Source: Nitrospira sp. (lineage in GTDB: Bacteria; Nitrospirota; Nitrospiria; Nitrospirales; Nitrospiraceae). Taken from it: a DNA stretch of 64,000 bases. The number at the start of each line of letters is the position of its first letter. Positions within the stretch are counted from its first letter, which is position 1. Made by a program: the position numbers and the translations under genes. The stretch spans positions 620,001 through 684,000 of the forward strand of contig CP126122.1 of the NCBI GenBank assembly GCA_030123565.1, read 5' to 3'. Below, piece by piece: positions 8,992 to 38,579 of this stretch. Under the pieces are notes generated by a model. It did no database searches, was not told the origin of the DNA, and worked only from the letters and a program-made list of their open reading frames with translations.

Positions 8992-10715
8992 AGATCTCCA
9001 GAAAACAGTACTCCGATTTGTTCGGTCCCACGGTGGGAGACCGCGTTCGGCTCGCCGATACGGACCTGTTGATCGAAGTAGAGCGGGATTACACCTCGTA
9101 CGGGGATGAGGCCGTCTTCGGGGGCGGCAAGGTCATTCGTGACGGCATGGGCCAATCGCCTGCCGCCACGAATGCAGGCGGAGCCCTCGACACCGTGATC
9201 ACCAACGCGCTGATCCTGGACTACTGGGGGATCGTGAAGGCGGATATCGGGATCAAGGACGGGCGGATTGCGGCGATCGGCAAGGCGGGGAATCCCAACT
9301 TGATGCCTGCTGTGACGCCGGGAATGGAACTCGGCGCCGGCACGGAAGCGATCTCGGCGGAAGGCTGCATCGTGACGGCCGGGGCGATCGAAAGCCATGT
9401 CCACTTTATTTGTCCGCAGCAGGCATGGGAAGCGCTCTCGGCCGGGATTACGACCATGATCGGCGGCGGAACCGGGCCTGCCACCGGTACGAACGCCGTG
9501 ACCTCGACGCCTGGTCCCTGGAACATCCATCGAATGCTTGAAGCGGCTGAAGGCTTCCCGGTCAATCTTGGGTTTACGGGGAAAGGCAACTGTTCCATGC
9601 CGGAGGCGCTCGACGAACAGATCGAAGCCGGCGCCATTGGGGTGAAGGTCCATGAAGACTGGGGCTCTACACCGGCGGCCATCGACACGGCCCTGAGCGT
9701 GGCCGACCGGTATGATGTTCAAGTCGCGCTGCATTCGGATACGTTGAATGAAGCGGGATTCGTCGAAGATACCATCAACGCCTTCAAAGGCCGGACGATC
9801 CATGCCTACCACACCGAAGGCGCCGGGGGAGGCCATGCTCCCGATGTCATCAAGCTGTGCGGCGAACCGAACGTCCTTCCATCCTCCACGAATCCGACGA
9901 TGCCGTTTACGGTGAACACGATGGCGGAGCATCTCGATATGCTGGTGGTCTGCCATCATTTGAACAAGAAGGTGCCGGAAGATGTGGCGTTCGCCGAATC
10001 GCGGATCCGCCGGGAGACCATCGCTGCGGAAGACGTGCTGCACGACCTGGGGGCCATCAGCATGATGTCCTCCGACACCCAGGCCATGGGACGCATCGGC
10101 GAATTGATCATTCGAACCTGGCAGACGGCCCATAAGATGAAAGTCCAGCGGGGGCATCTGTCGCCCACCGGGACCGAGGCGCAGTATACGCAGGCCGACA
10201 ATTTCCGAGCCCGCCGGTACGTCGCGAAGTACACGATCAATCCGGCTCTGGCGCATGGCGTTGCACATGAGATCGGGTCGATCGAGAGGGGAAAGATCGC
10301 CGACCTCGTGATCTGGAAGCCCGCCTTCTTCGGCATCAAGCCGGAGATGGTGTTGAAAGGCGGATTCATCGCCCAGGCAGCGATGGGAGATCCGAATGCG
10401 TCTATTCCCACCCCGCAGCCGGTCCTCAGTCGCCCCATGTTCGGCGCCTTCGGACGCGCCATCGGCAGCACCAGCCTCACCTTCATGTCTCAGGCGGCGG
10501 TGGAGCGGGAGGTGCCGAAGCAACTAGGGTTGCAGCGGCGGGTGGTCGCGGTCAAACATTGCCGCAACGTCACGAAACGTGATTTGAAACTGAACAATGC
10601 GCTGCCGAAAATCGAAGTCGACCCGGAAACCTATGTGGTGACAGCCGACGGGGTGCATCTGACGTGCGATCCCATCGTCGTGCAGCCGATGGCGCAGCGG
10701 TATTTTTTGTTTTAA
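8988..10715 (+). CDS. ureC: Urease subunit alpha, catalytic
   Basis: A 575-residue catalytic subunit that hydrolyses urea to ammonia and carbamate at a dinickel centre. Visible active-site parts are the HVH metal ligands ([11 protein letters not shown]), the carbamylated Lys in [12 protein letters not shown], His ligands in HSDTLNE and [12 protein letters not shown], the flap segment [19 protein letters not shown] and the Asp in SSDTQAMGR. The open frame extends upstream to 8727, but homology and family length fix the start at the GTG overlapping the ureB stop. A long antisense open frame here is a coding shadow. Confidence 0.97.
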
Positions 10716-16031: not shown

Positions 16032-16946
16032 CTATGGCGAGGTCGCAGGCTTGCGAGGCGCCGCTTTCGGCTTGGTTTTTGGAGACGGCGGTTCCTTCTC
16101 GGCGAGTTGACGCCGCACCGATTCAAGTTCTTCTTTCAGCCTCTGCAACTCTTCCGCCTGTTTGACCACGAGATCCTTCGTCGCTTGCAATTCCTGTTGG
16201 AGACGGCTTGGTTCGAGGGCCGACGCTGCCGCTATCGGTTCAACTGCCACCGGCGACCTGTCGTCGGCAGGCGAGGTGGGTGTTCCTGCAAGTTGATTGA
16301 GGGCCTCGACGGCGATTGCGATACGCGGCTGTTCCGGTTCGATGATCATCCAGGACTGGGGCGTATCCTCCCGTACGACGGCCTGGGCCGGATCGAAGGA
16401 TAGGGTGAGCGACGGTGGTCTGCTGTGCGCCTGTCCCGGTGCGGCTCGGTAGTGGGACAGGTTTAAACGTATTGTCGTCTTGTGCATGAACAGGGTGCCT
16501 TGTGTCATGAGGCCGTCATCCTTCACCACGAACTTGACCCGTTGGCTCGGCTCTGCTCGACCGAACGCCTGCGAGACGAGCGGCGAAAGGAACTGCACGT
16601 CTTCGGGGGAAAAGAGAGGATAGAGACCAGGCTCAGTCGAGGTCCCGTGCCGTTCGACTCCCGACACCTGCAGACCGGTCAGCAGTCTGGCGACCATGGC
16701 AGGTGAAAGGTACAGGGGGTGCGAGGCCTGAAATGCGAGTTGTGGTCCGCTGTGTTGGGCTGTGGTGCCGCGGTTGACCAGGCGTTCGAGGACGACGGAT
16801 CCTAGCGGACCCTCTCCGACGGGAGTCACGGTGGACATGGCGCTACAGGCGCTCAGGAGCAGGCAAGGGAAAAGAACCGGCCCGGCTTGCCGTAGGCGCA
16901 TGGGCCGTGACCACCCAGGTTGAGAGCGTCGCATCAAGGGGGGCAT
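16032..16946 (-). CDS. Lipoprotein with C-terminal coiled coil, nadE-flanking paralogue 1
   Basis: A protein of about 304 residues with a lipobox (LLLSAC-S). The middle contains FQASHPLYLSPAMVARLLTG and LFSPEDVQFLSPLVSQAFG, and a Glu/Lys/Gln-rich coiled coil (KDLVVKQAEELQRLKEELE) precedes a Lys/Pro tail. It is clearly paralogous to the lipoprotein at 19144-20160, and the pair flanks nadE. The open frame extends upstream to 17168, across the nadE leader promoter, so I chose ATG 16946; ATGs at 16934 and 16901 are alternatives. Function unknown. Confidence 0.7.
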   Translation of the reverse strand: MPPLMRRSQPGWSRPMRLRQAGPVLFPCLLLSACSAMSTVTPVGEGPLGSVVLERLVNRGTTAQHSGPQLAFQASHPLYLSPAMVARLLTGLQVSGVERHGTSTEPGLYPLFSPEDVQFLSPLVSQAFGRAEPSQRVKFVVKDDGLMTQGTLFMHKTTIRLNLSHYRAAPGQAHSRPPSLTLSFDPAQAVVREDTPQSWMIIEPEQPRIAIAVEALNQLAGTPTSPADDRSPVAVEPIAAASALEPSRLQQELQATKDLVVKQAEELQRLKEELESVRRQLAEKEPPSPKTKPKAAPRKPATSP

Positions 16947-17114
16947 GGAGCGCGGATTGTACCATAGGCGGACGACCGAACTGCATGGGTTTCGTGAGAG
17001 TGATGTCCTAAAGATGCATTTCATACGTTCAGCGGGACCAGCCTTGCGGATCGATTCAATGAACTTCAAAGACAGGACATTGGTCGGATATTGAGAAAGG
17101 CCTTCTGGACTCGG

Positions 17115-17144
17115 TTGACAGCCGATTCCGGCCGATGCTATACA
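17115..17144 (+). promoter_or_regulatory. Sigma70-like promoter of the nadE leader
   Basis: TTGACA at 17115-17120 and TATACA at 17139-17144 are 18 bases apart. Transcription would start near 17151, ten bases before the first leader hairpin, the same layout as at the other three leader loci in this window. Confidence 0.65.
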
Positions 17145-17160
17145 GTCGCCACGCTTTTCC

Positions 17161-17256
17161 GGGGACAATGGAGTCTCCGATGGTGCTCCGTATAACTATG
17201 GCGCAGGACAACGACGTCCTCTGATCCACTCCTGTGGGTCCGAGGACGTTTTTTTT
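17161..17256 (+). promoter_or_regulatory. ANTAR-type antitermination leader upstream of nadE
   Basis: Hairpin P1 is GGGGAC-[AATGGA]-GTCTCC at 17161-17178. Hairpin P2 is AGGAC-[AACGAC]-GTCCT at 17205-17220. Both loops have six bases with A at 1 and G at 4, the pattern known for RNA bound by ANTAR-domain proteins. The terminator pairs ACGTCCTC (17214-17221) with GAGGACGT (17242-17249), has an inner GATCCAC/GTGGGTC stem and ends in eight T. P2 and the terminator share ACGTCCT, so they exclude each other: stabilising P2 would let transcription reach nadE. Confidence 0.82.
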
Positions 17257-17328: not shown

Positions 17329-19104
17329 ATGCAGTCGTTACGAATTGCCATGGCCCAGATGAATCCGACGGTCGGTGATCTGTCGGGAAACGTCCGGCGG
17401 ATCGCGGCATGGATGCGTGAGGCACGCCGCGCCCGGGCCGATCTGGTGGCCTTTCCGGAATTGGCCGTCACCGGGTATCCGCCGGAGGATCTCCTGTTCA
17501 AACCCCGTTTCATCGATGATACCGATCGCGCGTTGAAGGCGGTGGCGGCGGAAACGCGCGGGCTGGTGGCCGTGGTCGGCTATGTCGGCCGGGGGACGAC
17601 GACCGCGCCTTCGCCCGACACTGCCTCTCTGCCCTCGACCGGGCGCCATGATCTGTACAATGCGGCGGCCCTACTCTCCGATCGTCGGGTGCTGGCCAGC
17701 TACTGTAAACGCCACTTGCCGAATTACGGAGTCTTCGACGAAAGCCGCTATTTTCAGCCCGGGCTCCGCCTGCCTCTGTTGGTGCTGAACGGCACCATGG
17801 TCGGCGTCAACATTTGTGAAGACATTTGGTTTCCCGAAGGGCCCACTCGGGCGCAGGCTGCGGCTGGCGCCGAGGTGATCGTGAATATCAACGCCTCGCC
17901 GTTCCATGTGGGCAAGGGTCGGATGCGGGAACAGATGCTGGCGACCAGGGCGCGCGACAATCGCGTGATCGTCACCTATACCAATCAGGTCGGCGGACAG
18001 GACGAACTGGTCTTCGACGGCAACAGCGTCATCGTCGATCAGGCCGGCGAGATCATGGCGCGGGGCAAGGCGTTCGAAGAGGACCTCATCATTGCGGATC
18101 TGGATGTCGAGACGGTGGGGCGGACACGTCTGGCGCAGGGCCGTAAGAAACCGCTGCCCCCGCGGGTGGCGGCCCTCATCGACCGGCTTGATGTGCGACT
18201 GCCGGAGAAGAAGTCGCGCTCAATCGTCGTGCCGACATTGGAGCCGCAATTGGATCGGCTCGACGAGGCCTATCGGGCGCTGGTCCTCGGGGTGCGGGAT
18301 TACGTCCGCAAAAACGGGTTCAAACGTGTCGTCATCGGATTGAGCGGCGGCGTGGACTCGGCCTTGACCGCGGTGATCGCCGTCGATGCGCTCGGGGCGG
18401 AGAATGTCCTCGGGGTGTTCATGCCTTCGCCGTACACGTCGCGGGCCAGCCGCGAGGACGTGGCCGACCTGGGCCGCCGGCTTCGCATTCAGGTGGATAC
18501 GCTCTCCATCACGGCGACCTTCAACAGCTACCGGCGCGCGCTTGCCCGTCCCTTCCAAGGCCATCGGCCCGATACGACCGAAGAAAATCTCCAGGCCCGC
18601 ATCAGGGGGAATCTCTTGATGGCCTATTCGAACAAGTTCGGCCATCTCGTGCTGACCACCGGGAACAAGAGTGAGATGAGTGTCGGCTATGCGACGCTAT
18701 ACGGCGACATGGCAGGAGGGTTCGCGGTCATCAAGGATGTGCCGAAGACGATGGTCTATGAATTGTCCCACCTGCGGAATCTCGCGGGGGCTGCCCCGGT
18801 GATTCCGAAACGTATCCTCGACCGGCCTCCCACGGCGGAATTGCGTCCCGATCAAAAGGATGAAGACAATTTGCCGCGCTATGCGGTCTTGGACCCCATC
18901 CTGAAGGCCTATGTGGAGGAAGACCGGGCGCTGGAGGACATCGTGGCCATGGGATTCGACCGGGAGACGGTCGCGCGGGTCATCACATTGGTCGATCGCA
19001 GCGAGTACAAGCGGCGGCAATCGCCGCCCGGGATCAAGATTACGCATCGGGCCTTCGGAAAGGATCGACGGATGCCGATCACCAATGGGTATTGCAACTA
19101 TTAG
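17329..19104 (+). CDS. nadE: Glutamine-dependent NAD+ synthetase
   Basis: A 591-residue two-domain enzyme that amidates nicotinic acid adenine dinucleotide to NAD+ using glutamine. Residues 1 to about 270 form a nitrilase-type glutaminase with Glu in FPELAVTGYPPEDLL, Lys in YCKRHLPNYGVFDE and the nucleophile Cys in VNICEDIWFPEG. The C-terminal half is the ATP-pyrophosphatase synthetase domain with the P-loop IGLSGGVDSALTA. It is preceded by an attenuator-type leader and flanked by two paralogous lipoproteins on the other strand. Conditional termination ahead of a normally essential gene is odd. Confidence 0.95.
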   Translation: MQSLRIAMAQMNPTVGDLSGNVRRIAAWMREARRARADLVAFPELAVTGYPPEDLLFKPRFIDDTDRALKAVAAETRGLVAVVGYVGRGTTTAPSPDTASLPSTGRHDLYNAAALLSDRRVLASYCKRHLPNYGVFDESRYFQPGLRLPLLVLNGTMVGVNICEDIWFPEGPTRAQAAAGAEVIVNINASPFHVGKGRMREQMLATRARDNRVIVTYTNQVGGQDELVFDGNSVIVDQAGEIMARGKAFEEDLIIADLDVETVGRTRLAQGRKKPLPPRVAALIDRLDVRLPEKKSRSIVVPTLEPQLDRLDEAYRALVLGVRDYVRKNGFKRVVIGLSGGVDSALTAVIAVDALGAENVLGVFMPSPYTSRASREDVADLGRRLRIQVDTLSITATFNSYRRALARPFQGHRPDTTEENLQARIRGNLLMAYSNKFGHLVLTTGNKSEMSVGYATLYGDMAGGFAVIKDVPKTMVYELSHLRNLAGAAPVIPKRILDRPPTAELRPDQKDEDNLPRYAVLDPILKAYVEEDRALEDIVAMGFDRETVARVITLVDRSEYKRRQSPPGIKITHRAFGKDRRMPITNGYCNY

Positions 19105-19143: not shown

Positions 19144-20160
19144 TTACGGATTTGTTGGCTTCAACCTGGAAGGTGGTTTGTTTTTTCGCTTCTGGTTGTC
19201 CTGCCGCGTGATCTGGTCGTCGAGTTGTCGTCGGATTGATTGCAGTTCCTGTCTGAGTGCGTCCAACTCAAGATCCTTCTTGATGATGAGGTCTTTGAGC
19301 GTATGAACCTCGTGTTCTCGCTGTTCTGGCGTTTGCTGGGCGCTCAATGGATTTTGGGAGGGCAGAACAGCCGGTACCTCCTGTCGAGGCGGTTCAACCG
19401 CATGTTCCGGCCGAGGCCCAGCCTGCACAGACGTTGCTGCTGACGGCGATTCCTGTTGCAGAAGCTGATAATCGATGGCCAGAACCTTGTCGGTCGCGGC
19501 ACCTGATGCCGATCGATGGGCGGTATCGGACCCTTGGGCGAAGCGAGGAGTAAAAAGCAGTAGCTGGTCGGACAGACCCGACGTATCAGGGAGACGCCGG
19601 TGAGCGATGTTTTCCGTGTTGGTCCTGGCCGGCGCGGATCGATACTGAGAGAGCGAAAAGTAAAGCGATCGGCCAGAGGTGTAGAGAGAGCCGGCGGTGG
19701 TCTCGGTGGTGGAGGACTCCAACAGTGAGTGGCCGGGGCGCCGAGCGATGACCGAAAATCCCACTGCTTGATTGTCCGCGGCGGTCGCCAGGGCTTTCGC
19801 AAGCAGTGGAGCCAAAAACTGGATTTCCTCCGCGGAAAAGACTGGAACAGTGGGAGATGGTCCTGCTAGAACTGCCTGAAGGGCTTGCTGGCGTTCCTGG
19901 ATCAGGATGCCATTCAATAGGCGCGTGAGAAGGGACGGTTCCAGGCTGATCGGGTGACTGGCCCGGAAGGACCGATCGGAAATTTGCTGAAGGAACACGG
20001 CTCCGCGCGCATCTTCAAAGAGAGTTGTACCGGTCGGAGGTGTCGTACTACAGGCGGTACTTACGAGGCAGAACAAGACCATGAGCAGTGAGCGACTGTG
20101 TGATATTCCTCCTGCCGAACGATGTTGTGTGAGGGCCATAGATGGGCAGAAGTCTACCAT
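19144..20160 (-). CDS. Lipoprotein with C-terminal coiled coil, nadE-flanking paralogue 2
   Basis: A lipoprotein of about 338 residues with the lipobox VSTAC-S. It shares with the protein at 16032-16946 the segments FRASHPISLEPSLLTRLLNG and VFSAEEIQFLAPLLAKAL, a C-terminal coiled coil (KDLIIKKDLELDALRQELQ followed by IRRQL) and a basic, Pro-rich tail. A TTG at 20184 and an ATG at 20139 are other possible starts; none has a clear Shine-Dalgarno sequence. Function unknown. Its stop lies 39 bases from the nadE stop, so the two are convergent. Confidence 0.68.
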   Translation of the reverse strand: MVDFCPSMALTQHRSAGGISHSRSLLMVLFCLVSTACSTTPPTGTTLFEDARGAVFLQQISDRSFRASHPISLEPSLLTRLLNGILIQERQQALQAVLAGPSPTVPVFSAEEIQFLAPLLAKALATAADNQAVGFSVIARRPGHSLLESSTTETTAGSLYTSGRSLYFSLSQYRSAPARTNTENIAHRRLPDTSGLSDQLLLFTPRFAQGSDTAHRSASGAATDKVLAIDYQLLQQESPSAATSVQAGPRPEHAVEPPRQEVPAVLPSQNPLSAQQTPEQREHEVHTLKDLIIKKDLELDALRQELQSIRRQLDDQITRQDNQKRKNKPPSRLKPTNP

Positions 20161-20184
20161 AGATAAGCGGTCATTATCGGGCAA

Positions 20185-21114: not shown

Positions 21115-22035
21115 TTATCCGATTGGGCAGGAGCTCCAATGTAGGTCGCTCTTCTGCACCCACCCTGCTAATCCCTGTTCGGTTCGGATGCGAACATAGA
21201 CGCCATCCAACGGTGTATTTTCCCCAAGCGCCAATTCCGATGTCAATGTTCCAATCACGCGTCCCTCGCCTGGTGTAGCCCGTACAACAACCTCGCTTCG
21301 CTCAAGACCAAGACAGACCAGTGGTGAGATGGCTCCGACCTCCGGTTCGGTTTCATGAGACTGCACAGTTCCAACGGTTGGGTTTTGTCTTGTTGAGTCA
21401 ATCGAATCCTGGGTCGCGGTCCGGACTTCTCGAGGCACCTCTTCAGATTCGAAAGTCGCCGCTCCTTGAAAAGTTGAAGCATCCCTTGCAGGGGGCAGTC
21501 CTTTACTCAGACGGTCGGCAAGCTGCATCAGCACATCTGAAGCCGAGACCGAAGGAGATGGGGTGGGATCATCATGGGTCAGAGTGGCCAGCGTTTCGAC
21601 AAGATACACGCGATATCCGTCACGGTAAGGTTGAAGGCAGGCCGTGTATCGACGGACGGCTTGGAAGTCGCCGTGGATTCCCTCGATCTTCGCCAGAGAG
21701 TGAGGACAGACGACATGCGGGAAGCGCACCGCGCCCAGGTGGTCCAGAGCTAGCACCTTGTACTCGACAAGAAAACCTGAAGGGGTAAGGGGTATCCGGG
21801 TAGGCATGGCCCCCTCGGTGACGGTGGGTGGAGCCTTCAGGACGCGCAAAAAGGAATCCCCGAGGACGTGTGTAATCACATTCGGATCCACGTCGCCGGG
21901 AAGATCATAGGCTTTCGATGTAGCGGGGAGGACGTTCGACTCTACCGGAGATGTCAAGGACGCGCATCCCGTAACGAGGCTGGCGAATCCGAGAAGCAGG
22001 GCAGCATAATTGTTGATCATCCGCCTGGCATGCAT
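21115..22035 (-). CDS. Lipoprotein with C-terminal SH3-like domain
   Basis: A 306-residue lipoprotein (lipobox LVTGC-A) with a strong GAGGAGG before the ATG. The middle part has VICPHSLAKIEG-like and CLQPYRDGYRVYLVETLATL segments of unknown family. The last 65 residues resemble a bacterial SH3 domain (VVVRATPGEGRVIGTLTSE, then GVYVRIRTEQGLAGWVQKSD). It is the only gene directly downstream of two tandem ANTAR-type leaders on the same strand, which suggests a role tied to nitrogen status; that is inference. Confidence 0.72.
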   Translation of the reverse strand: MHARRMINNYAALLLGFASLVTGCASLTSPVESNVLPATSKAYDLPGDVDPNVITHVLGDSFLRVLKAPPTVTEGAMPTRIPLTPSGFLVEYKVLALDHLGAVRFPHVVCPHSLAKIEGIHGDFQAVRRYTACLQPYRDGYRVYLVETLATLTHDDPTPSPSVSASDVLMQLADRLSKGLPPARDASTFQGAATFESEEVPREVRTATQDSIDSTRQNPTVGTVQSHETEPEVGAISPLVCLGLERSEVVVRATPGEGRVIGTLTSELALGENTPLDGVYVRIRTEQGLAGWVQKSDLHWSSCPIG

Positions 22036-22087: not shown

Positions 22088-22174
22088 AAAAAAAACGTCC
22101 TCTGGTCCATAGGACCGGAGGACGTCGTTGTCCGCTTGCCGGGTATCAGCCCGATCGGAGGCGTCATCGCCTCC
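22088..22174 (-). promoter_or_regulatory. ANTAR-type leader, second (gene-proximal) unit
   Basis: Read on the minus strand: P1 is GGAGGC-[GATGAC]-GCCTCC (22174-22157) and P2 is GGAC-[AACGAC]-GTCC (22133-22120). The terminator pairs ACGTCCTC with GAGGACGT around an inner GGTCC/GGACC stem and ends in eight T at 22095-22088. P2 and terminator share the GTCC arm. The P1 loop has G rather than A at position 1 but keeps G4. The unit ends about 50 bases before the lipoprotein start codon. Confidence 0.75.
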
Positions 22175-22190
22175 AAGAATTCATCAGTTC

Positions 22191-22270
22191 AAAAAAAAAA
22201 GGACCTCTGGTCAACTTGACCGGAGGACCTCATCGTCCACTCTCTGCAATGGGGAACGCCGTTGTCTCCC
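22191..22270 (-). promoter_or_regulatory. ANTAR-type leader, first (promoter-proximal) unit
   Basis: Read on the minus strand: P1 is GGGAGAC-[AACGGC]-GTTCCCC (22270-22251), with one mismatch in the stem. P2 is GGAC-[GATGAG]-GTCC (22238-22225). A terminator hairpin built around GGTCAA/TTGACC follows, with ten T at 22200-22191. The second loop lacks A1 but keeps G4. With the next unit this makes two attenuators in series before one lipoprotein gene. Confidence 0.7.
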
Positions 22271-22284
22271 ATCACAATGGCTAA

Positions 22285-25991: not shown

Positions 25992-26008
25992 CGCCCACGA
26001 AATAGGTA

Positions 26009-26100
26009 GGGAAACAAAGGCGTTTCTCTGCCGGTTTGAAAGCACGACGACGGGGACAATGACGTCCTTGGGCCATGAGGGCCTGGGGGCGTTTTTTTTT
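26009..26100 (+). promoter_or_regulatory. ANTAR-type leader of the porin-amt-amt-glnB-glnD operon
   Basis: P1 is GGGAAAC-[AAAGGC]-GTTTCTC (26009-26028) and P2 is GGAC-[AATGAC]-GTCC (26054-26067). Both six-base loops have A1 and G4. The terminator stem runs 26062-26074 against 26080-26092 with 13 consecutive pairs, several G-U, a five-base loop and nine T. P2 and the terminator share ACGTCC, so the two folds exclude each other. It lies about 260 bases upstream of the porin start. Confidence 0.82.
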
Positions 26101-26358
26101 GCCTTGCACGAACGCTCCGGGTGAGACCCTCACGACCCAGAAACGATGGCATGCCATTCCGGGGAGGTGCTGTGGGTAGGCCGTCTGCGCGGTGCTTGTG
26201 AGGTCTCGCGAGGTGATTGCCTGGAACGGCCACGCTGGGCCGGCGGCCTGGTACAGGGCAAATATGGCGCGCAATGGCTGCGTGACGACGATGATGTCGA
26301 GAAAGAGGGCCGGCGGCAATGCAGCATCATCGAAAGGATGAGAACGGAGGCGATCGTC

Positions 26359-35117: not shown

Positions 35118-35146
35118 TTGACGTCTCGGTGGGAGGATGGTATATA
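35118..35146 (+). promoter_or_regulatory. Sigma70-like promoter of the nitrite transporter leader
   Basis: TTGACG at 35118-35123 and TATATA at 35141-35146 are 17 bases apart. Transcription would start near 35153, thirteen bases before the first leader hairpin. A CCATCCTCC/GGAGGATGG inverted repeat (35096-35104 and 35132-35140) overlaps the spacer and could end glnA transcripts or bind a regulator. Confidence 0.65.
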
Positions 35147-35165
35147 TGGCGGCTGTGGACGCAAG

Positions 35166-35260
35166 CAGGCAACGGCGCCTGAGTTGAGCCCACAACACAA
35201 CGTGTAAACGGACAAAGGCGTCCGTCATTCTTGCGAGAGTGGCGGACGCCTTCTTGTTTT
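35166..35260 (+). promoter_or_regulatory. ANTAR-type leader, first unit, before the nitrite transporter
   Basis: P1 is CAGGC-[AACGGC]-GCCTG (35166-35181) and P2 is ACGGAC-[AAAGGC]-GTCCGT (35208-35225). Both loops have A1 and G4. The terminator pairs AGGCGTCCG (35216-35224) with CGGACGCCT (35243-35251) and ends TCTTGTTTT. It shares the P2 loop and 3' arm, so P2 and terminator exclude each other. Confidence 0.82.
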
Positions 35261-35262
35261 CA

Positions 35263-35365
35263 GCCGACGCTGCGGTCGGCCTCCTCGATCGGACGGGGCG
35301 TTGGAAGCCTCGTTGAGCAGGACAACGACGTCCTCTTCCCGGCAGCGGGATGAGGACGTTTTTTT
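35263..35365 (+). promoter_or_regulatory. ANTAR-type leader, second unit, before the nitrite transporter
   Basis: P1 is GCCGAC-[GCTGCG]-GTCGGC (35263-35280) and P2 is AGGAC-[AACGAC]-GTCCT (35319-35334). The terminator pairs ACGTCCTC (35328-35335) with GAGGACGT (35352-35359), with an inner TCCCG/CGGGA stem, and ends in seven T. The P1 loop keeps G4 but has G at position 1. This unit follows the first with two bases between them, giving two attenuators in series. Confidence 0.75.
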
Positions 35366-35399: not shown

Positions 35400-36230
35400 A
35401 TGCATACAGCGGATCACGAACGGATCGCAGCGGTGGCGACTAAGAAGTGGTCGTTCTGTGAGCAATCGCCGGGCGGCTATCTCATCCTGTCCGCCTTGGC
35501 GGGAATCTATCTCGGCTTCGGGATCGCGCTGATCTTCAGTATCGGTGGTCCCTTGGCGGCGGCCGGGTCCCCCTTGGTCAAACTCATCATGGGGGCATCC
35601 TTCGGGATTGCGTTGACCCTGGTGATCTTTGCTGGATCGGAATTGTTCACCGGCAACAACCTGGTCGGCGCCATCGCGGGCCTATCGAAAAGCCTCTCCT
35701 GGACACAGGTTGTTCAGCTGAATGCCTGGTCGTGGCTGGGGAATCTGGCCGGGTCCTTGGGGTTGGCCTGGCTGGTCATTCAATCCGGTGTGTTCGCCAA
35801 GGGGCCGACGACGGAGCTGATCGAGAAGGTGGCGGCGGTCAAGATGTCGCTTCCGGCCTGGGAACTGTTCGTGCGGGGGATTCTCTGTAATTGGCTGATC
35901 TGTTTGGCGGTCTGGATGGCGGGGCGGACGAGCAATGACGCGGCGAAGATCCTCCTGATTTTCTGGTGCCTGTTCGCGTTCATCGGCATCGGCTTCGAGC
36001 ACAGCATCGCGAATCAATCGTTCCTAGGCATGGCGCTTTTCCTGCCGCATGACGCAGCCGTCAACTGGGCGGGTTTTTGGTACAACCAGGCCTTCGTCGT
36101 CCTGGGCAACATCGTCGGCGGCGGGTTGTTTGTCGGCGGGCTCTATTGGCTGGTGAGCCCCTATCGCATGACCGAAACGCAGGTGGCGTCGGCGGTTCAA
36201 TCGGTTGGTCCGGCAGTCGTCAGATCGTAA
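35400..36230 (+). CDS. Formate/nitrite transporter family protein, likely nitrite uptake
   Basis: A 276-residue FNT-family pentameric channel with about six membrane helices. Family parts include GGYLILSALAGIYLGFGIAL, FAGSELFTGNNLVGAIAGL, WLGNLAGSLGLAWL, RGILCNWLICLAVWMAGRT and GFEHSIANQSFLGMALF. ATG 35400 is preceded by GAGGAGGGAG; the open frame reaches back to 35301, through the leader terminator, which is not coding. With cynS and nirA downstream, nitrite is the likely substrate, as in NirC. Confidence 0.9.
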   Translation: MHTADHERIAAVATKKWSFCEQSPGGYLILSALAGIYLGFGIALIFSIGGPLAAAGSPLVKLIMGASFGIALTLVIFAGSELFTGNNLVGAIAGLSKSLSWTQVVQLNAWSWLGNLAGSLGLAWLVIQSGVFAKGPTTELIEKVAAVKMSLPAWELFVRGILCNWLICLAVWMAGRTSNDAAKILLIFWCLFAFIGIGFEHSIANQSFLGMALFLPHDAAVNWAGFWYNQAFVVLGNIVGGGLFVGGLYWLVSPYRMTETQVASAVQSVGPAVVRS

Positions 36231-36282: not shown

Positions 36283-36726
36283 ATGATGGAAAAAGAAGCG
36301 GTTCGAAAAGCGATTAAGGCGAAACGGGTGAGTAAGAAGGTCACAATTGCCGAGGTGGCAAAAACAGTCGGCAAGAATCCGACGTTCGTGGCGGCGGCCT
36401 TGAACGGCAATCACCGCCTGTCGCCGGAGGAGGCCTCGAAGGTCGGGAAACTGTTGGACTTGGATAAGGAGCAGATCGGCGCACTCAGTGCGTTTCCCGT
36501 CCGTACGGATTTCCCGAACACGACGGACCCGTTCAAGTACCGGCTGCTGGAAGTCATCGGCGTCTACGGAGATTCTTTGCGGGAGATGGCGAACGAAATG
36601 TTCGGCGACGGGATCATGAGCGCGATCGATTTTACCCTGGACATGGAAAAGGTCACCGGCAGTCAGGGGGAGGCACGCTGCAAGATTACCTTGAACGGCA
36701 AGTGGCTCGAGTACAAGACGTTTTAG
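36283..36726 (+). CDS. cynS: Cyanate hydratase (cyanase)
   Basis: A 147-residue enzyme that converts cyanate and bicarbonate to ammonia and CO2. The catalytic residues are Arg87, Glu90 and Ser113 in YRLLEVIGVYGDSLREM and GDGIMSAIDF. Their spacing (3 and 26 residues) is exactly that of Arg96, Glu99 and Ser122 in E. coli CynS. The N-terminal helical domain and the C-terminal ITLNGKWLEYKTF tail also match. It provides an alternative ammonium source and sits inside the nitrite assimilation operon. Confidence 0.94.
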   Translation: MMEKEAVRKAIKAKRVSKKVTIAEVAKTVGKNPTFVAAALNGNHRLSPEEASKVGKLLDLDKEQIGALSAFPVRTDFPNTTDPFKYRLLEVIGVYGDSLREMANEMFGDGIMSAIDFTLDMEKVTGSQGEARCKITLNGKWLEYKTF

Positions 36727-36777: not shown

Positions 36778-36972
36778 ATGAGGACGAAAGAAGAAACCAA
36801 GTTGCTCTCGATGATGGAGGGCCTGGCGCCACAATCGTTTGAGGAACTGATGGCCCTCTCGGGCCTCAGCGCGTCACAGGTATTGTTGGTCGTGGATCGG
36901 TTGAGTCGGGCGGGAACCGTGGTGTTGAGGAAATCCGGAACGGACTATTCCGTGGCATTGGGAGGGACGTGA
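36778..36972 (+). CDS. Small winged-helix-like protein before nirA
   Basis: A 64-residue cytoplasmic protein. SFEELMALSGLSASQVLLVV followed by DRLSRAGTVVLRKSGTDY has the helix-turn-helix plus wing pattern of minimal DNA-binding domains. AAAGGAGG precedes the ATG at 36778; a start at 36748 is less likely. Its stop overlaps the nirA start by one base (TGATG), implying coupled translation. It could be a local regulator or a small partner of NirA; no family is recognised. Confidence 0.7.
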   Translation: MRTKEETKLLSMMEGLAPQSFEELMALSGLSASQVLLVVDRLSRAGTVVLRKSGTDYSVALGGT

Positions 36973-38579
36973 TGAACAAGATCGAGGCGATCAAGTCGGA
37001 ACGGGATGGATTGGCGGCGCGCGACATGATCGCACAGTATGCGCTGACGGGCTGGGAGTCCATTCCCGAGGACGATATTCAACGATTGAAATGGTGCGGC
37101 CTGTTCCTGCGCAATCCCACGCCGGGCCATTTCATGCTGCGGGTGCGGCTGCCGGGTGGCCACACGACCTCGTCTCAACTCCATGCGCTGGCGGAGATCG
37201 CGCTCTGTTATGGAAACGGCGTGATCGATGTGACCACGAGACAACAAGTTCAACTTCGGCACCTGACGATCGAGAATGTGCCGACAGTGTTCGCCAAGCT
37301 GGAGGAGGCAGGACTGACCTCTCTGCAAACCGGCATGGACACGGTGCGCAACGTCATGACCTGTCCGGTGGCGGGCTTGAATCCCAATGAACTGCTGGAC
37401 GGCACGGACATCGTCATCGCCGTCAATCAGGAGGTGTTGGGCAATCCGGCCTATTCGAATCTGCCGCGCAAGTGCAATATCGCCGTGACCGGCTGTCCGG
37501 ACAATTGCCTCCACATGGAGACGCAGGACATCGCCCTGGTCCCGGCCTATCACGATTTGGGGCACGACAAGTGTTATGGATACAACGTGCTGATCGGAGG
37601 AAAGCTGGGATCCGGCGGCTATCGGATTGCGACTCCGCTGGACCTGTTCGTGAATCCGGCGGAAGCCTTTGAAGTCTGCCGGACCATTCTCCACATCTAC
37701 CGCGACCATGGCCCGCGTGAGAATCGCACGCAAGCGCGTCTCGCGTTTCTCGTGGAATCGTGGGGAGAGGCGCGGCTGCGCCAGGAGGTAGAGGTACGGA
37801 TGGGGCGGACCTTGCCCGTCGCCGGTATCGACGCCAGGGCTGCGGTAGAGCATGACCACATCGGGATTTTCCGCCAAAAGCAACGGGGGATGAACTATAT
37901 CGGACTCAAGGTACTGGTCGGCCGCGTCAAGGCAGCCGACCTGCGGAACATCGCCGCGCTGGCTGATCGGTATGGCACAGGCGAAGTGCGACTCTCGCCG
38001 GCGCAAGCCTTCGTGATCCCGCATGTCAGCGATCGGCTGGTCGGCGCGCTGGCGGAAGAGCCGCTGGTCAAGCAATTCGCCTACAACCCCTCGCCTCTGT
38101 ATAAGGGCCTCGTCAGCTGCGTGGGAAGCGACTATTGCAACCTGGCCGTCATCGAAACCAAACGCCGGGCCGTCGAAACGGCGCATGTGTTGGAGCGCAA
38201 GTTGGGTGAGGGGCTCAAGCCGATCACCGTCCATTGGTCCGGCTGCCCGGCCGGCTGCGGGAACCATCTGGTCGCGGATATCGGGCTGTTGGGGAAGAAG
38301 GCGAAGGTGGGCGGCAAGGTCGTCGATGCCGTGGATATCTTTGTCGGGGGCCGTTCTGGGCCCGACCCCAAGCTCGCCACCAAGATCATGGAAGATGTGC
38401 CCTGCGACAGGCTTCCGGCAGTGCTGGAGACGCTCATGCCCTACCATACGCGCGAGAAAATGCATCGCGTGCGTGGAAAGGCGGTGTCAAAAGACAGGGG
38501 AGCGGTGAAGGCGGCAGCGTCCGGCAACGAGACAGCCGGTCCCATGCCGGCGCTCACACCACAACCGTTTTCAGCGTAA
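36972..38579 (+). CDS. nirA: Assimilatory ferredoxin-type nitrite reductase NirA
   Basis: A 535-residue sirohaem and 4Fe-4S enzyme that reduces nitrite to ammonium with electrons from ferredoxin. The cofactor cysteines are visible as SCVGSDYCNLA (C-x5-C) and WSGCPAGCGNH (C-x3-C). The two-fold repeat of the sulfite/nitrite reductase family is seen, with the ferredoxin-like half FMLRVRLPGGHTTSSQLHAL near residue 55. A sulfite reductase is possible by fold, but the neighbours (nitrite transporter and cyanase) favour nitrite. A GTG three bases upstream is a less likely start. Confidence 0.92.
   Translation: MNKIEAIKSERDGLAARDMIAQYALTGWESIPEDDIQRLKWCGLFLRNPTPGHFMLRVRLPGGHTTSSQLHALAEIALCYGNGVIDVTTRQQVQLRHLTIENVPTVFAKLEEAGLTSLQTGMDTVRNVMTCPVAGLNPNELLDGTDIVIAVNQEVLGNPAYSNLPRKCNIAVTGCPDNCLHMETQDIALVPAYHDLGHDKCYGYNVLIGGKLGSGGYRIATPLDLFVNPAEAFEVCRTILHIYRDHGPRENRTQARLAFLVESWGEARLRQEVEVRMGRTLPVAGIDARAAVEHDHIGIFRQKQRGMNYIGLKVLVGRVKAADLRNIAALADRYGTGEVRLSPAQAFVIPHVSDRLVGALAEEPLVKQFAYNPSPLYKGLVSCVGSDYCNLAVIETKRRAVETAHVLERKLGEGLKPITVHWSGCPAGCGNHLVADIGLLGKKAKVGGKVVDAVDIFVGGRSGPDPKLATKIMEDVPCDRLPAVLETLMPYHTREKMHRVRGKAVSKDRGAVKAAASGNETAGPMPALTPQPFSA

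Follow-up and report, generated by a model that had tools for sequence, protein, structure and literature searches.

The window analysed here is the whole 64,000-nucleotide stretch of the Nitrospira sp. genome, and positions refer to it unless they are called genome positions. An intergenic leader lies 3' of the gene which we take to be glnA (end 35090) and 5' of an operon encoding an FNT transporter, cyanase (CynS) and nitrite reductase (NirA). The features of the leader and the operon are as follows.

35118..35146, + strand: predicted sigma70-like promoter TTGACG-N17-TATATA, read from the sequence (-35 at 35118-35123, TATATA at 35141-35146)
35155-35161 with 35187-35193, + strand: lower stem of P1a, imperfect in this genome (3 pairs with two-sided change, 83.8% paired, 23 leaders)
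35166-35181, + strand: P1a (unit 1), CAGGC-AACGGC-GCCTG, hexaloop with A1/G4 (98.3% paired, 2 compensatory pairs among relatives)
35208-35225, + strand: P2a (unit 1), ACGGAC-AAAGGC-GTCCGT, hexaloop with A1/G4 (stem invariant across 23 leaders)
35217..35260, + strand: intrinsic terminator 1 (stem 35217-35250; 100% paired in 23 leaders; consensus scan) with an interrupted T-tract, TTCTTGTTTT, at 35251-35260
35263-35280, + strand: P1b (unit 2), GCCGAC-GCTGCG-GTCGGC, hexaloop with G1/G4 (99.3% paired, one compensatory pair)
35292..35314, + strand: hairpin within the P1b-P2b linker (6 pairs with two-sided change, 23 leaders)
35319-35334, + strand: P2b (unit 2), AGGAC-AACGAC-GTCCT, hexaloop with A1/G4 (98.3% paired, near-invariant)
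35328..35365, + strand: intrinsic terminator 2 (stem 35328-35359; 100% paired in 23 leaders, one compensatory pair) with T7 at 35359-35365
35400..36230, + strand: FNT (formate/nitrite transporter) gene (PF01226, 4.7e-67)
36283..36726, + strand: cynS, cyanase (PF02560, 1.7e-30)
36969..38579, + strand: nirA, ferredoxin-type nitrite reductase (PF01077, 1.5e-55)

The original prediction had described a promoter followed by two complete units in series, each comprising hairpins P1 and P2 and a terminator that reuses the 3' arm of P2. The two units were confirmed to the exact coordinates, and the reuse of the P2 arm held for both. The promoter was confirmed base for base and recurred as TTGACG-N17-TATA[A/C/T][A/G] in 23/23 leader-bearing relatives. 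The four predicted loops, AACGGC, AAAGGC, GCTGCG and AACGAC, were also found as described, with A1 in three and G4 in all four of them. The conserved hairpin at 35292-35314 and the interruption of the first T-tract are small amendments to that description. Terminator 1 is built on loop bases 4-6 and the 3' arm of P2a and thus excludes folding of P2a, and terminator 2 excludes P2b through shared bases in the same manner. The predicted energies of the two terminators (-26.6 and -23.7 kcal/mol) were far stronger than those of P2a (-8.1 kcal/mol) and P2b (-5.6 kcal/mol) alone, which matches the expectation for a default-off switch.

Comparison across the genus revealed the same tandem leader directly 5' of 23 of 24 orthologous FNT genes. 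The leader was located 3' of glnA in 27 of 29 genus genomes, even where a differing operon followed; the remaining two are assemblies of 84-89% completeness. The genome with the 24th FNT orthologue (G017) and three others in which a close FNT orthologue was not found (G002, G004 and G013) carried the tandem leader after glnA with other cargo, namely nrtABD, cynS or cynS/nirA. The leader was also present in the genome of Candidatus Nitrospira defluvii (FP929003.1). FNT homologues of Nitrospina, Chloroflexi and Gallionella showed no convincing leader. Covariation of the stems in related strains, on which the original prediction had staked itself, was present: the 23 aligned leaders contained 12 pairs with two-sided change and were 92.8% paired (0/500 shuffles). 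Across 87 distinct units, pairing was 95.4% with 198 compensatory cells (0/500 shuffles) and slid controls gave far lower values, relatedness being removed partly by the slid controls and not by the shuffles. Since the P2 stems are invariant in the 23 orthologues, they contribute no covariation signal of their own.

Two strong terminators directly after glnA could also be an ordinary intrinsic terminator pair that ends or insulates glnA transcription and is not regulated. This reading is highly improbable, as a conserved promoter separates the hairpins from glnA, the P1/P2 hexaloops are conserved despite being dispensable for termination, P1 covaries, and the leaders co-occur with an ANTAR gene, as given below.

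Over all units, G4 was present in 81 of 84 six-base P1 loops and in 99/99 P2 loops, and A1 in 75/84 and 94/99, respectively. P1b carries G1 in place of A1 in 21/23 relatives and is followed by a long linker. It could therefore be asked whether only one unit works, P1b being degenerate and terminator 2 unregulated or weakly regulated, or the linker hairpin, in place of P1b, serving as the recruiter in unit 2. The linker hairpin indeed bears an A1/G4 hexaloop in G002 (AGCGCA) and in L004 (ACTGTA). In G002 this hairpin adjoins P2b and the hairpin upstream of it is without a hexaloop, so that the linker hairpin may sometimes assume the role of P1. We nevertheless consider a single working unit unlikely. 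P1b still had a hexaloop bearing G4 in 22/23 relatives, and a near-perfect stem with compensation; P2b and terminator 2 were as strictly conserved as unit 1, and G1 loops were seen again in the second tandem leader of this genome. Moreover, in the EutV-RNA structure it is the loop G4 that contacts the protein and A1 makes no contact (PMC8934654), hence G1 in P1b may be tolerated.

The P1-P2 linkers, counted on the sequence, are 26 nt in unit 1 and 38 nt in unit 2, and exceed the working range of EutV, for which linkers of 5-12 nt work, those of 14 nt or more fail, and an addition of 20 nt abolishes antitermination. This spacing rule has been measured in EutV only, and the long linkers are thus a difference from EutV rather than a failure of a family-defining feature. 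If the lower stem of P1a and the linker hairpin fold, about 14 and 15 nt of linker, respectively, would be left unpaired. These two elements may act as spacers that restore the proximity of the hexaloops.

The combination of a P2 hexaloop, an overlapping terminator and a T-run occurred five times in the window, whereas first-order Markov sequence gave 0.1 per 64 kb on average. Seven units, six from this genome and one from a relative, served to train a covariance model (R1). Unit 2 of the 35118-35365 leader was kept out of training, as its long linker caused it to be misplaced when aligned. A search of the 4.6-Mb genome with R1 returned seven units at E<0.01, the next-best matches being antisense echoes or noise. 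Unit 2 was recovered with E=5.8e-6 against the whole genome and, being absent from the training set, provides an independent test of the model. The E-values are rough owing to short calibration and six of the seven own-genome matches are training sequences; unit 2 and the relatives are therefore the independent support. Together the seven units make up five leaders, which all lie at genome 619.35-655.37 kb and no more than about 37 kb from the ANTAR gene. Besides the leader described above, they are:

Genome 619352-619451, outside the window: unit before a urea porin gene, then urt/ure genes
17159..17256, + strand: single unit before nadE (NAD synthetase, 17329-19104, Pfam; R1 73.7 bits, training set)
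22088..22271, - strand: tandem leader before an SH3-type lipoprotein gene (21115-22035, - strand), with unit 1 at 22191-22271 and unit 2 at 22088-22176 (R1 69.8 and 83.2 bits, training set)
26008..26101, + strand: single unit before porin-amtB-amtB-glnK-glnD-glnA (R1 76.8 bits, training set)

The names urt, ure, amtB, glnK, glnD and glnA are our assignments, presumed from familiarity with the translations. All the leaders precede nitrogen or nitrogen-linked genes, except that of the SH3 protein. The latter is a conserved, uncharacterised lipoprotein whose C-terminus is SH3-like and which matched nothing in Pfam; its placement behind a tandem switch was unexpected. Tandem matches were also found in G017, G021, G025 and G028, before the orthologous lipoprotein gene where read.

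A scan of the leader against Rfam gave no family at threshold. The sole resemblance, far below threshold, was between Pseudomonas P11 (RF00625) and 35173-35250, where the P11 consensus and the leader share an identical GGACAAAGGCGUCC module of hairpin and overlapping terminator. P11, catalogued as an sRNA of Pseudomonas, may itself be an ANTAR/NasT leader, perhaps NalA.

The reader of the leader might be something else altogether: a riboswitch, for glutamine for instance, another RNA-binding protein or a leader peptide. We found no positive support for such a reader and regard it as most improbable, given the Rfam result and given that the loop sequence, the co-occurrence among genomes and the presence of an ANTAR gene whose RNA-contact residues are conserved all favour ANTAR.

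The original prediction depended on an ANTAR protein being encoded in the genome. Exactly one was found (71 bits, cut-off 27.3), its gene located as follows.

Genome 616971-618230: ANTAR gene (PF03861, 7.1e-19), just outside the window and 37 kb upstream of the leader

Each of the 29 genus genomes likewise encodes exactly one ANTAR protein. In the genome of the window, Pfam revealed a GAF-GAF-ANTAR layout, with neither a NIT nor a REC domain detected. NasR is a NIT-ANTAR protein, and NasT is a REC-like partner of NasS. Since the sensor here consists of two GAF domains, these two proteins, which the original prediction had named as examples, are akin to the Nitrospira regulator in the ANTAR output domain and no further. 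The RNA-contact residues of EutV, R142, K143, K147, Y164 and M172 (PMC8934654), aligned with R, K, R, F and M in the Nitrospira protein, and these residues were invariant in the 29 genomes. The query for this alignment was the C-terminal part of the ANTAR protein with a few inter-GAF residues in front. For the first GAF domain, the nearest solved structures were an uncharacterised GAF domain (3e0y) and the GAF domains of PtsP/EI-Ntr (3ci6, 3trc), with a weaker likeness to a NifA-like regulator (4g3k). Nearness to EI-Ntr/PtsP and NifA-like GAF domains makes a nitrogen-status ligand a reasonable guess at most, and a metabolite that reports nitrogen status is a plausible signal for the protein.

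Among 156 genomes of the family, 90 had both the leader and an ANTAR gene, 57 had neither, eight had the leader only and one had the ANTAR gene only (Fisher p ~1e-32, uncorrected for phylogeny). The eight leader-only genomes were mostly 80-89% complete; G068, at 99% complete, was the exception. Outside the family, ANTAR was present in 11/11 leader-bearing genomes tested and in 5/19 genomes without the leader among the matches listed. At least one tandem pair occurred in 21/38 sampled genomes of the family (ten further genera), with unit starts 89-146 nt apart.

Genomes carrying amo genes, recognised by ammonia monooxygenase PF02461, were confined to two genera, g15 and g17. In g15, none of the 45 amoA-bearing genomes had an ANTAR gene, and 12 of the 28 amo-negative genomes had one. 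In g17, on the other hand, the ANTAR gene was kept in all ten amoA-bearing genomes. The split between g15 and g17 resembles that of comammox clades A and B, the clade names being our reading of it. The regulon seems to have been lost in one comammox lineage, and its absence tracks that lineage; the missing ANTAR gene in 45 g15 genomes may represent one loss event. As a separate observation, a well-formed ANTAR unit is present at G068:C17:157075-157171 (L151), in the amoA-bearing, 99% complete genome in which no ANTAR gene was detected. This unit is possibly a relic.

Taken together, we interpret the leader as two ANTAR-type attenuators in series, opened by the sole ANTAR protein of the genome in response to a nitrogen signal, and place the probability of this reading at about 0.88. 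Transcription would start near 35153. In the default state, the terminator would fold in each unit and most RNA polymerases would halt near 35260 or 35365. A nitrogen signal would activate the GAF-GAF-ANTAR protein, a dimer of which would bind the P1/P2 hexaloops of each unit, stabilise P2 and block the overlapping terminator. The polymerase would thus need release twice before reaching the FNT transporter, cynS and nirA genes. We infer binding, termination, antitermination and the direction of control. The same GAF-GAF-ANTAR protein most likely controls the other four leaders too.

The original prediction had expected a steeper response from two switches than from one. This part was weak, as arithmetic for two independent, non-cooperative switches gives a Hill slope of only 1.1-1.2. 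By the same arithmetic the leak is squared, from 10% to 1%, and at 10% leak induction rises from 10-fold to 100-fold. The series arrangement would thus chiefly lower the leak and multiply the dynamic range, and tightness, with little steepness unless binding is cooperative, is the more likely main gain of the tandem layout.

A transcriptomic hint is available from another strain. In N. moscoviensis, which is without NirA, the nitrogen cluster was, urea genes apart, for the most part strongly transcribed with nitrite as sole nitrogen source, and cyanase was within the top 100 genes (PMC6606698). This pattern is consistent with readthrough in the absence of ammonium and serves as a hint and not as a test. 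A wider reading, for and against which we see about equal weight, is that Nitrospira-type nitrite oxidisers control nitrogen acquisition, across the family, by an ANTAR regulon under one GAF-GAF-ANTAR protein, with the main operon gated in series and the linker hairpin of the second unit bridging the hexaloops, and that this regulon was lost when clade-A-like comammox Nitrospira turned to ammonia for growth.

Attenuators of the ANTAR kind, and nitrogen regulons built on them, are already known (Ramesh 2012, PMC3369931). The present case varies in that one leader holds two units, one loop has G1, and the long second linker contains a covarying hairpin. EutV (REC-ANTAR) of the Enterococcus faecalis eut genes uses the same A1/G4 dual-hexaloop P1/P2 arrangement, with P2 overlapping an intrinsic terminator, and, like the Nitrospira protein, serves several leaders (PMC3369931). 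The two systems differ in the sensor (REC versus GAF-GAF), in linker length (short versus long) and in the process controlled (ethanolamine use versus nitrogen assimilation), and E. faecalis has separate leaders across the eut cluster whereas Nitrospira has two units in one leader. Many attenuators likewise precede nitrogen genes in Desulfotomaculum acetoxidans, of another phylum, the nitrogen regulon of which has at least 13 attenuators in six transcription units, a mean of more than one per unit (Ramesh 2012, PMC3369931); whether any two of them share a leader is not stated in the accessible text of the survey. Two control elements per leader are also described for Salmonella mgtCBR (PMC3641672) and for tandem attenuators and riboswitches in general (review PMC9481103), but the sensors there differ from ANTAR, mgtCBR using leader peptides. 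Nitrite/nitrate assimilation genes are under ANTAR antitermination in two further cases, the NasR-nasF leader of Klebsiella and the leaders served by NasT, Pseudomonas NalA among them; one leader per operon is described for these, as against the tandem units of the Nitrospira operon.

The original prediction knew of no account of tandem ANTAR attenuators in Nitrospirota, and we found no mention of them in the literature, the supplementary tables of the 2012 survey aside. No paper linking ANTAR to Nitrospira was found either, with the proviso that the supplement of PMC3369931 may list N. defluvii. Neither ANTAR nor attenuation is mentioned in a comparative genomics study of the order from 2025. 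Control of nitrogen assimilation in nitrite-oxidising Nitrospira is apparently little studied. A single regulator, a defined RNA code and, for one genome, a closed list of targets now bring the question within direct experimental reach. The leader offers a natural series-switch design, and its long linker, maybe bridged by a hairpin, makes a case for probing the spacing rule of EutV.

Two minor observations concern the surroundings of the leaders. An Rfam match to 5_ureB_sRNA (65 bits) lies at 9134-9432 on the - strand, antisense to ureC, and probably stems from the conserved coding sequence of urease, not from a gene for an sRNA. Three similar lipoproteins are encoded in this nitrogen island, between the transcription units under predicted ANTAR control, at 16032-17168 (- strand) and 19144-20184 (- strand) of the window and at L001 1711-2676 (- strand), and share a motif like GAVYLERIPTRxFQAxHPIxL.
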